Part shown: positions 20,618 to 24,003 of the stretch, piece by piece | Numbering within the stretch: the stretch's first letter is position 1 | Layout of the letters: every line of letters starts with the position of its first letter | Origin: a virus | Length of the DNA stretch: 24,516 nucleotides | IMG/VR virus record: IMGVR_UViG_3300035659_000453 | Coordinates: 1 to 24,516 of that record | Reading direction: 5' to 3' (one strand) | Made by a program: the position numbers and the translations under genes | Notes under the pieces: generated by a model | What the model was told of the DNA's origin: nothing | Database searches by the model: none | What the model saw: the letters and a program-made list of their open reading frames with translations, nothing else

Positions 20618-20826
20618 GAGAGCTTTCGAGAGACGAACAGGATTTGATTTTTGAATACCGACGGGTCAAGGCCCTGCGTCATGGCGACCTGATTGTGTCC
20701 GTCAAGAACGAGGAAATGGTCAAGCTGTGGGTGACGACGCAGACCACGAAGAAGATCGATCTCGATGGCCTACGCAACGGAAAAAAATTGATGGAGGTGA
20801 CCCCCAATGACAAAGCTTGTAATTAA
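20605..20826 (+). CDS. Hypothetical small head-region protein
   Basis: 73 residues; the SD AAAGGAG is about twelve bases upstream, inside the previous gene. Sequence SRDEQDLIFEYRRVKALRHG then LIVSVKNEEMVKLWVTTQT is a small basic helix-beta protein. Its 3' end carries the GGAGGTGA SD and first codons of the protease gene. No homolog family recognised. Confidence 0.55.
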   Translation: MGEIGELSRDEQDLIFEYRRVKALRHGDLIVSVKNEEMVKLWVTTQTTKKIDLDGLRNGKKLMEVTPNDKACN

Positions 20827-22303
20827 AGCCGTCAAGACAATGTTCCGGGACAATAAAGAAAAAAACGTCGCCGGATATGATTCGCTCGTCGATAAACTGA
20901 AGGGCGACCCGGACGTGGACAATCCCTACGCTCTGGCCCATTACATCAAGGGCGAGTCGAAAAAGAAAGGGGCCACGCAAGCCAACACGCTGAACACGCT
21001 CTCCCAGCTTTTGAAGAAGGGCACGAAGCTCCGCTGTTCGGAATCGGCCAAATTTGTTGAGAAGGTATCCGTGTCCGAAGCCCCGGAGGGCCACGTGTTC
21101 AAGGTGGTCTTGATTACCGAAGGGCTGGGGAACCGCCGCAACATGAATTTCTACGGGCCGGAAGCCATCGTCTCCGCCCCCGGCATATTCGAGGGAAAGC
21201 CATGTTTCCTCGACCACCCCAGCGAATCCGAGGATCGGGATATACCGGAACGCCGGGTGCGTGACAAGTGTGGATATTTTAAGAACGTGAAGGTGGAATC
21301 CATGGACGGGGCCCAAGCGGTGACGGGCGAGCTTCATTTTGACCTGTCGGATTCCGGGAAGAACGGCTACCTGAAAGCCCTGACCGCCCTTCACTACAGA
21401 AACGAATTTCCAAACCTCGAATCGGAATATGTCGGCCTCTCCATCAACGCTGATGGAGAGTGGGAAGATCGCAAAGTCGAATGGCTGGGCGAAATTCTCG
21501 ACGTTAATTATGTCACGCAATTCAAAGACGCATTCTCGTGTGACATCGTGACAAGCCCGGCACGAGGTGGAAGATTCCTTGCCTTGGTGGAAAGTGCCGC
21601 TGGGGCAAAACCCGGAAAGGAGGGAAATGCCATGAAAGGACTCAAGAAGAGTCTTGAAGCGGCACGAGCCGCCCTTGAGGAAGCCGTCAAAGAATCCGAC
21701 GCCGCAAAAAAGGCGAGTAAAGTCGCCGAGGCCAAGAAGCTCTTTGATGCGTTTCTTAAAGAGGCGGAAACAGCCGCTATGCAAGACGAAGATGAATCCG
21801 AATCCGAAAAGAAAGAAGGGTGCGAAGACGAGGGCGAAGCCAAAGTCGTGGCCAAAGCTTCCGAAAAAAAGGAAGACGAAGCCAAGAAAGAGGACGAGTC
21901 CGAATCCGAGGACGATTCTGAAAAGAAGGATAAGGAAGTTCCAGCAGTTAAAAAGGAAGAGACCGAAGCCGAAGACGACAAGGAATTGCCGAAAGGCGAT
22001 AAGGTCGATGGCGAAGACGAGGATGAAGACGAAACCGTCGAATCCAAACGTCTCGCTGTGACCGCCCTGTTGAAGGAAGCGAAGGTCGATCTTCCCGAAG
22101 AAAAGGTCGCCGAATTGGGCAAGCTCTCTTTGAAGGAAGCGAAAAAAGAAATCGCTTTCCTCAAGGGCTTGGTCGAAGCGACCGCAAAAAAAGTGATCAG
22201 CAAAATGTCGGTTCCATCCGCCCGGTTCGCCTCGATGAGTGAATCAGAACGGAAAGCCGTCGGGTCAGGCAACAACGACCTGTTCGCTGATTGTCTAAGG
22301 TAA
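20807..22303 (+). CDS. Prohead protease with C-terminal scaffold
   Basis: 498 residues. Residues 1-75 are a lead domain with NPYALAHYIKG. The protease domain, about 95-260, has VLITEGLGNRRNMNFYGPEA, CFLDHPSE (H137) and EYVGLSINADGEW (S212), a His/Ser pair fitting herpesvirus-assemblin-like phage maturation proteases. From about 276 it becomes a long charged Glu/Lys coiled coil (to about 440), ending in a folded knob (MSVPSARFASMSESERKAVG), typical of a scaffold that fills the prohead and is then cleaved. An internal SD and ATG at codon 276 could yield the scaffold alone. SD for the full gene: GGAGGTGACC. Confidence 0.85.
   Translation: MTKLVIKAVKTMFRDNKEKNVAGYDSLVDKLKGDPDVDNPYALAHYIKGESKKKGATQANTLNTLSQLLKKGTKLRCSESAKFVEKVSVSEAPEGHVFKVVLITEGLGNRRNMNFYGPEAIVSAPGIFEGKPCFLDHPSESEDRDIPERRVRDKCGYFKNVKVESMDGAQAVTGELHFDLSDSGKNGYLKALTALHYRNEFPNLESEYVGLSINADGEWEDRKVEWLGEILDVNYVTQFKDAFSCDIVTSPARGGRFLALVESAAGAKPGKEGNAMKGLKKSLEAARAALEEAVKESDAAKKASKVAEAKKLFDAFLKEAETAAMQDEDESESEKKEGCEDEGEAKVVAKASEKKEDEAKKEDESESEDDSEKKDKEVPAVKKEETEAEDDKELPKGDKVDGEDEDEDETVESKRLAVTALLKEAKVDLPEEKVAELGKLSLKEAKKEIAFLKGLVEATAKKVISKMSVPSARFASMSESERKAVGSGNNDLFADCLR
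21632..22303 (+). CDS. Nested scaffold gene (internal in-frame start)
   Basis: AAAGGAGGG (21616-21624) is seven bases before an ATG at 21632-21634 that is in frame with, and equals Met276 of, the protease gene. This site is better than many true starts here and falls exactly at the boundary between protease and scaffold, so a 223-residue free scaffold (starting MKGLKKSLEAARAALEEA) is likely made in excess over the protease form. Known precedent: lambda C/Nu3 and other phages with nested protease/scaffold genes. Confidence 0.72.
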   Translation: MKGLKKSLEAARAALEEAVKESDAAKKASKVAEAKKLFDAFLKEAETAAMQDEDESESEKKEGCEDEGEAKVVAKASEKKEDEAKKEDESESEDDSEKKDKEVPAVKKEETEAEDDKELPKGDKVDGEDEDEDETVESKRLAVTALLKEAKVDLPEEKVAELGKLSLKEAKKEIAFLKGLVEATAKKVISKMSVPSARFASMSESERKAVGSGNNDLFADCLR

Positions 22304-22319: not shown

Positions 22320-22793
22320 ATGTCTACTACGTCGCAAAATAATCAGATCCACAATGAAAGCACACCGCTGTATTACCCAGTCTTAACGGACGGGACGTAT
22401 GATGTCAACCAAGGAGACTTGGTTTGGTTCGACAGCTCGGTTCATGCCGTCAAGCCCGTGGATTCGGATGCTCACGCCGCCTATTGTGCGGGTGTGGCTT
22501 TACAGCAAAGCAAACTGAATGTGTACGGTTCTGCGGGCTATCCGCAGGGCGGCATTCAAGTGGCGACCAGAGGTATCTTTAAATTCAAGACAACCGCTGG
22601 CGATACGCTCAACCATGGAGATGCAGTTTATATCGGTGCTGATGCTCAGACCGTCACAAATACCGCTGGCGGAATGACATCCAAAATCGGTTATGTGTTT
22701 CTGCGTCCCCAGCAGTCTGCCGTTTCCGGTGCAGTCGGTACAAACATCGAGGTTTTAATCACCCCGTTGTTCCCGATCACTGGCGGCCTATAA
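22320..22793 (+). CDS. DUF2190-like head decoration protein
   Basis: 157 residues with a very strong SD, AAAGGAGGTGG. GDLVWFDSSVHAVKPVDSDA, then GVALQQSKL, GGIQVATRGIFKF, AGDTLNHGDAVYIGADAQTV and KIGYVFLRPQ give the repeating short strands of DUF2190-type capsid-associated proteins (bulk value, then state change GDxVY, then IGxV). Such proteins decorate or cement capsids and are abundant. Located directly before the major capsid gene, as expected. No signal peptide. Confidence 0.75.
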   Translation: MSTTSQNNQIHNESTPLYYPVLTDGTYDVNQGDLVWFDSSVHAVKPVDSDAHAAYCAGVALQQSKLNVYGSAGYPQGGIQVATRGIFKFKTTAGDTLNHGDAVYIGADAQTVTNTAGGMTSKIGYVFLRPQQSAVSGAVGTNIEVLITPLFPITGGL

Positions 22794-22806
22794 GGAGGAA
22801 ATGACG

Positions 22807-24003
22807 ATGTCCAAAGAAACCAAAGATTCAGTCGTCCGGCTCAGCCCCCTTATTGAGGCAAACCGGAATCTCACGAAGAGAGTTCACGAACACAAATCCT
22901 CAGCGATGCTGGAAAGCATCCGCCGGGCGTTTGGCGTGGACTTGGCCGACAAGGAAAGCTTCAACTTTGAAGACCCGTTCTTCTCTTGGATTAAGTTCCG
23001 GGAAGCGGCCTACAAAGTCGCCGAGAGGAAAATGCAGGAATCAAATGCGGAGAACACCTTTTCGCAATTGCTTCGTGCGGGCATCAACATGATCGCCAAC
23101 AACTGGTACGAACTGGTCGAAACCAACCACGAAATGGTCGGTGCGTCCACGTTCTCGACCAAGGCGATTGAGCCCTACGCCCCGCTTCACCGTGGTGCGG
23201 TTCCTCGCCGAGTGCAAGCCGGAGGGCAATTCCCCCGGACTCGTGTTGCTGGCCTCGACATCCTGATCACCAATGAAAAATTTGGTGCTATCGTGGACTT
23301 TGAACGAGAACTGTTTGACGACGATCAAACAGGCCAGATCGCTCAACGAGCGAAAGACATTGGAGAGAATATGCGTATCCTCGAGGATGCGTGGTTCTTC
23401 CAACGGTTCATCGGAACCGCCGGAGACTATGCCGGAGATCCGATCCCTGCATCGCAGACCTACTCGACAGTTTGGGCCCCAGCGACGGCTCCTCTGGCGG
23501 GTGGCGGGTACAATCGGCCAGCCAGCTACTTGGCCTTTACCCCGGCGAACCTTCAGCTCGCCGACCTTGCTCTGATGCAACAGCTTGACTTGCTCGGCAA
23601 CAAGATGTTGGTTAACCCCAACACCCTGCTCGTCGGAACAAGCAACAAGTTCTCTGCTCGCACACTGTTGAACTCCGAATGGTATCCGTCCAACGCCACC
23701 GTGAAAATCGGCGGCGGTGCAGGTGCGGACTCCACCCTCGGCGTGGCCTTTGCTCGAAACGTGATGGAAGGGCTCTACAACCTCGTTGTAAGCCGGTTCC
23801 TTCCCGCCAAAGCGTGGTCAATCGGTGAGGCTGGCAAGGGGATCGTGTTCCAGCGTCGTGACGCTCTTGAGATCATCCAAGAGAATCCGGCTTCTGGTAT
23901 GGCGTTCTCGAATGATGTGTTCCAGTTCCGATCCAGAGCCCGCTGGGAACCCGATTGGGTTGACCCTCGCTTCTGGTTCCTCGGAAACGACGGAACGATC
24001 TAA
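22807..24003 (+). CDS. Major capsid protein
   Basis: 398 residues. AAGGAGG (22792-22798) lies eight bases before the ATG at 22807; the ATG at 22801 is too close. Segments NHEMVGASTFSTKAIEPYAP, VDFERELFDDDQTGQIAQRA, ILEDAWFFQRFIGTAG, NKMLVNPNTLLVGTSNKFSA, SEWYPSN and FQFRSRARWEPDWVDPRFWF resemble HK97-fold capsid proteins that lack a long delta domain because the scaffold is separate. The place after protease/scaffold and decoration genes strongly supports the role. Whether the N-terminus, about residues 1-60, is cut by the protease is unknown. Confidence 0.88.
   Translation: MSKETKDSVVRLSPLIEANRNLTKRVHEHKSSAMLESIRRAFGVDLADKESFNFEDPFFSWIKFREAAYKVAERKMQESNAENTFSQLLRAGINMIANNWYELVETNHEMVGASTFSTKAIEPYAPLHRGAVPRRVQAGGQFPRTRVAGLDILITNEKFGAIVDFERELFDDDQTGQIAQRAKDIGENMRILEDAWFFQRFIGTAGDYAGDPIPASQTYSTVWAPATAPLAGGGYNRPASYLAFTPANLQLADLALMQQLDLLGNKMLVNPNTLLVGTSNKFSARTLLNSEWYPSNATVKIGGGAGADSTLGVAFARNVMEGLYNLVVSRFLPAKAWSIGEAGKGIVFQRRDALEIIQENPASGMAFSNDVFQFRSRARWEPDWVDPRFWFLGNDGTI

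Follow-up and report, generated by a model that had tools for sequence, protein, structure and literature searches.

Does a single gene in the head module of an uncultured phage give rise to one protein or to two? The question is raised by an open reading frame (20807..22303, 498 aa; this and all features below lie on the + strand) in a 24.5-kb IMG/VR record, the whole of which (24,516 nucleotides) was analysed and is referred to here as the window. The frame fuses a protease to a scaffold, an architecture seen in its homologs, and its ATG at 20807 is preceded by the Shine-Dalgarno (SD) sequence GGAGGTGA. A second SD, followed by an in-frame ATG, is found far inside the gene.

The fusion protein and its head module

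The genes of the window include a large terminase (phrog_38), a portal, a possible head morphogenesis gene and two small genes without assignment. These are followed by the protease-scaffold frame, a cement or decoration protein gene (22320..22793; PF09956, E 2.4e-9) and a Mu gpT-like major capsid protein (MCP) gene (22801..24003; PF25209 and PF10124). The order portal, protease, decoration, MCP is common to the homolog genomes wherever these are annotated. No further scaffold-like gene was apparent among the portal, protease-scaffold, cement and MCP genes of this module. A small frame upstream (20618-20828) appears, by eye, to overlap the protease start, so translational coupling may act at the main start but not at the nested one.

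An AF2 model of the 498-aa protein, built on a 27-row alignment, predicts the protease domain with confidence (approximately residues 92-262; 21080..21592). Its last strand (256-261) is followed by a disordered linker (263-273) and then by the scaffold part, comprising a helix (274-295), a longer helix (299-332), an acidic, disordered and poorly conserved middle (327-404) and C-terminal helices. Modelled alone, the protease domain reached a pLDDT of 91. VIA-align placed T4 gp21 (5jbl) first, with Z 9.2 for the full model and 9.8 for the domain (rmsd 3.0 over 128 residues), and herpesvirus proteases next. Foldseek against the PDB alone returned weak matches topped by unrelated MCE and pseudouridine-synthase structures, and it was the VIA re-alignment that settled the fold; the best BFVD matches were phage maturation proteases, including an Arthrobacter phage capsid maturation protease. 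H137 (21215-21217), S212 (21440-21442) and D246 (21542-21544) are invariant in the 27-member alignments, and their His-Ser-Asp order and near spacing agree with gp21-type enzymes such as SPN3US gp245, with H77/S153/D178 (PMC5694885). The protease hence models as an assemblin-type fold with conserved His, Ser and third residue, to which catalysis is putatively assigned. Pfam gave no match for the window protein and single weak matches only for the 27 homologs (for example DUF2213), comparison of the domain profile with PDB sequences found no real relative, and nine of the 27 homologs matched phrog_15531, a head maturation protease.

Several putative cleavage sites accompany this fold. The first, LVE262|S (21584..21595), lies 13 codons ahead of the nested start. 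Its glutamate is invariant across 27 homologs, in the context L/I/V-x-E-S/A, with E-D in some members, and it is likely to be a site of self-cleavage that releases the protease. A second candidate within the scaffold, LKE424|A (22070..22081), has a glutamate conserved in at least 90% of homologs; both glutamates mostly occur in the context hydrophobic-x-E-[S/A]. A third, MSE|S (22235..22246), would be a C-terminal, maturation-type site. Sites of the hydrophobic-x-E-[S/A] form are 2-5x commoner than in shuffles in most of the proteins, a count inflated by the LKEA repeats of the helical scaffold. They are also numerous in the N-terminal stretch of the MCP (22801-23043, ~80 aa), which ends in a conserved [LMV]xE[AS]NAE, here MQE80|SNAE (23032-23043), and is probably a cleaved propeptide ahead of the capsid core. 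Taken together, the release, scaffold and MCP sites suggest a maturation programme like that of T4 and the herpesviruses.

The proposed nested start and its conservation

The internal SD, AAAGGAGGG (21616-21624), is followed by AAATGCC and then by the ATG at 21632, with a gap of 7 nt. This ATG is codon 276 of the fusion, in frame ((21632-20807)/3 = 275), and the nested gene (21632..22303) would encode a 223-aa scaffold of 24.4 kDa and pI 4.7, formed by a helix, the acidic disordered stretch and further helices. A preliminary description had reported an SD seven bases ahead of an in-frame ATG at codon 276, at the border between protease and scaffold. The coordinates are confirmed, and the AF2 model draws the border at this position, with the protease strand ending at 261, disorder across 263-273 and the scaffold helix beginning at 274.

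SD strength was expressed as anti-SD duplex energy in kcal/mol. The nested SD scores -12.1, against -10.6 for the protease's own start; the cement and MCP genes score -12.9 and -12.2, and none of the five further in-frame ATGs located from codon 39 onwards does better than -7.5. The window contains 14 copies of the pattern GGAGG(N4-9)ATG where 5.7 would be expected, including several at head-gene starts, and the phage therefore appears to use SD-led starts. When the residues PGKEGNA are recoded synonymously, however, an SD of equal or better strength arises in 7.7% of draws (p 0.077). Judged from the window alone, the nested SD is thus only suggestive; it is because of the comparative data that the site is counted as more than chance.

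Two other kinds of start were considered and rejected. An out-of-frame ATG at 21627 opens a frame of two codons (ATG CCA TGA) and is missing in the homolog L003, and was not regarded as meaningful. TTG and GTG codons 4-5 codons past the motif PARGG have SD-like DNA nearby, which was judged a by-product because Arg-Gly-Gly codons resemble an SD.

Scanning viral contigs, with a profile to widen the search, yielded ~35 distinct homologs, while a scan of genome contigs confirmed no relative. The cultured members, from a phage collection, comprise Arthrobacter, Brevibacterium, Streptomyces, Curtobacterium and Stenotrophomonas phages as well as the methanogen virus Blf4. Positions were counted in codons from the end of the protease-end motif D-x-V-T-x-PARGG, on which scale the SD-ATG of the window stands at +20. 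In the closer set (n=24, 39-89% protease identity to the window) an SD-ATG is found at +17 to +22 in every member. Dereplication left 29 representatives. An in-frame ATG with an SD of <= -8.5 kcal/mol falls within +14..+26 in 22 of them and farther along, at the scaffold border, in another four. The background rate of such sites across the rest of these ORFs is 0.0012 per codon, and the other two frames of the same +14..+26 stretch hold 1 and 0. The nominal binomial p for 22/29 is 5e-34 and ignores relatedness; these statistics treat related sequences as independent, which homologs are only approximately. After thinning to <60% protease identity, eight of ten members keep the site and the remaining two (L066, L016) have it further down. 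The expectation, likewise raised in the preliminary description, that SD and ATG should be conserved at this border in homologs is thus borne out widely, with exceptions only among remote relatives. Conservation across this wide range of homologs supports its claim of a nested scaffold start, and we regard a start at the protease/scaffold border as well supported by comparative sequence evidence.

Where the linker is longer, the start is displaced with it. The SD-ATG is found at +37 in L066 and L067, at +36 in Kukla and at +65 to +71 in L016, L018 and L039. In LuckyBarnes and MT835568, ~90-120 aa are inserted after the protease; no strong SD-ATG was found at +20 in these two phages, and one lies right behind the insert, at +98 and +132. 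From its position in these sequences, the nested site is one that tracks the scaffold border. Inserts between protease and scaffold were observed in LuckyBarnes, MT835568 and Jojan60 (L047:3430-3730; L083 and L078, past the protease motif), and the ~90-120 aa inserts have in common a motif, RDFD...EVRA/VVA..TKYVP.

Remote relatives in culture depart from the pattern. Yappy has no ATG at the border; SDs are weak in Jojan60 and the Amigo-type Arthrobacter phages and in Thunderclap/Molivia; and Blf4 has an SD of -7.4 at +25. In Streptomyces phages the SD-ATG lies only four codons past the motif (+4), which is also the sole site in L048. As a separate observation, the Microcystis phage Mae-JY22 and two metagenomic phages have the protease domain joined directly to the MCP by a short acidic linker (L020:2119-4998, L019:3-1955, L082:2644-4956), and the ATGs at the join have weak SDs only.

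A probable pair of products from one gene

The reading that we consider highly probable is that this one gene has two products, a protease-scaffold fusion and a separate scaffold made from the internal start, both of which would be incorporated into the prohead. From sequence, conservation and predicted fold we infer the following course of events. Ribosomes starting at 20807 would make the fusion, while those starting at the internal SD-ATG at 21632 would make the scaffold alone, in the same frame and with the same C-terminus. Fusion and free scaffold would be taken into the prohead jointly, with the core built from scaffold copies and protease supplied in smaller dose by the fusion. Once the prohead is assembled, self-cleavage at LVE262|S would liberate the protease, which would go on to cut both the scaffold and the propeptide of the MCP at similar sites (hydrophobic-x-E|S/A), and departure of the fragments would make room for the DNA. 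An excess of the short product is presumed in this scheme; the stronger nested SD argues for it, while folding of the RNA urges caution.

The RNA around the nested start (21580-21675) is strongly folded in the clade of the window (z -5.1 in the window, -4.0 in L003), with a hairpin immediately 3' of the nested ATG. In L009 the corresponding z is -0.9, and a conserved RNA structure, present in the window and L003 but not in L009, was rejected as a feature of the site. So strong a fold could make initiation less efficient if it were not opened by ribosomes arriving from upstream, and it may represent a brake that is released by ribosomes translating the protease part. The fold would also suit a minor nested product, made but redundant, with free scaffold arising mainly through self-cleavage at LVE262|S, as in fused proteins of the P2 gpO type; the invariance of Glu262 implies that the fusion is probably cut there. 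We nevertheless consider this improbable, since in 27 of 32 members the best candidate among the upstream starts, which were picked by rule, has a weaker SD than the nested start, and such conservation is hard to square with a redundant product.

A further concern is whether the SD is there for the ribosome at all. A Lys/Gln-Glu pair (AAG/CAG-GAG) may simply be favoured in the linker and Met may be an ordinary helix-start residue, in which case no ribosome would start there and the full-length protein would be the source of all scaffold. The pair does occur 2-4 residues ahead of Met in most members, where it supplies the GGAG; the amino acids could thus account for part of the SD. Taken one at a time, many members also give no significant result against the synonymous-recoding null (p 0.06-0.6). 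However, the residues ahead of Met vary widely (KEGNA, HRGGSA, KEVGP, STEDTR, KEVRT, TREGR, NQEVC, DKENV, QQEVR, NPKEVQ, KHKEVRI, GAGGGRY and GDRRDVA, among others). Most members have the SD core in codon phase 2, but L009, L011 and L071 have it in phase 1 and L029, L066, L018 and others in phase 0; its distance to the ATG is 4-9 nt whatever the phase, L048 being the exception. Members that lack K/Q-E keep an SD, in another codon phase, with significant recoding values (HHRGGSAM p 0.0055, APTREGRM 0.0035, GAGGGRYM 0.0015, GDRRDVAM 0.018); the combined p is 1.1e-6 over the 29 representatives and 8e-4 when thinned to <60% identity; and SD and Met shift together where the linker is longer. When close pairs are compared, synonymous changes are depleted directly ahead of the nested ATG (1/6, 0/6 and 1/7, against ~0.37 elsewhere), which is the direction expected, but the codons are too few for this to serve as evidence. 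Since the amino acids vary and the SD occupies every one of the three codon phases, it is apparently the nucleotides rather than the peptide that are under selection, and a by-product of the linker is a quite unlikely explanation.

Least probable of all is a role other than main scaffold for the nested product, for instance in tuning protease activation or head size: its acidic middle (327-404) is disordered and poorly conserved and its scaffold function putative, but the nested gene stands directly ahead of the cement and MCP genes, its helical ends flank an acidic centre, no other scaffold gene was seen nearby, and the precedent of Mu Z speaks for a scaffold.

Parallels in known systems and their implications

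The two-product reading places the gene within an arrangement that is already known. An in-frame internal SD-led start at a domain border, with a common stop, characterizes the nested protease/scaffold genes Mu I/Z and lambda C/Nu3, and the sequence here has the same features. The preliminary description had taken lambda C/Nu3 as its precedent. The idea of nesting stands, but not the choice of nearest relative, which was rejected on the protease fold: lambda C is a ClpP/S49-type protease, whereas the window protease models with the gp21/herpesvirus fold. Given that fold, the lack of a Pfam family and an MCP matching Mu gpT, Mu I/Z (for mechanism) and herpesvirus UL26/UL26.5 (for layout and fold) are closer parallels than lambda. 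In lambda itself, the Nu3 scaffold gene is described as overlapping the 3' part of protease gene C (Shaw and Murialdo 1980, as cited in PMC8508860), and the MD8 enzyme, related to lambda C, has been modelled on ClpP (PMC8508860).

In Mu, as is proposed here, the scaffold Z starts in frame within the protease gene I, at an internal SD (CAACAGGAGAACAAACCCATG), in an annotated layout, and Z lies directly ahead of an MCP from the family matched here (PF10124). Unlike the window, Mu has no cement gene between Z and T. Between the two proteases themselves hhalign detected no similarity (E 0.29, with Mu I as a single sequence), and PF10123 had no match in the window or in the control genomes.

The herpesvirus UL26.5 scaffold is made from a separate mRNA, that is from an overlapping gene of its own, whereas here an internal translation start would serve. 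Otherwise the layouts resemble each other: the herpesvirus protein has an N-terminal protease, a C-terminal scaffold, a release site between them and a C-terminal maturation site (PMC12474303), and for the last two the window protein has putative counterparts. The sequence of the separate scaffold UL26.5 is, moreover, that of the C-terminal part (PMC12474303), and the protease fold is likewise common to both. The nested start lies ~13 codons past the putative release site, compared with ~60 in HSV-1 by the numbers in PMC12474303.

Two further phage systems share parts of this plan. For P2 gpO, we know of no nested start. It resembles the present gene in that protease and scaffold are encoded together (PMC8508860) and differs in its Pfam family, which the window protein does not match. 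T4 gp21 is the best fold match and also has glutamate-based cleavage-like sites, but the T4 scaffold, gp22, is a separate protein with no fusion (PMC5694885). In a limited search of the open literature, we found no published nested scaffold in gp21-type phages.

Current gene callers give one protein at this locus, and the scaffold of this phage group has consequently been missed. If the two-product reading is true, a single internal start sets the ratio of scaffold to protease, which is testable in cultured relatives. More tentatively, and with somewhat less than even confidence, we propose that the plan of herpesvirus UL26/UL26.5 (the same protease fold, a release site, a maturation site and a nested scaffold) is followed in a large group of tailed phages, with the separate scaffold produced by an internal translation start, and that this plan is either ancestral to herpesviruses and tailed phages or has arisen repeatedly around the protease fold. 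Were this so, phages sharing the protease fold of the herpesviruses would also have their layout of protease and nested scaffold, and this would bear on the common origin of both capsid assembly systems.
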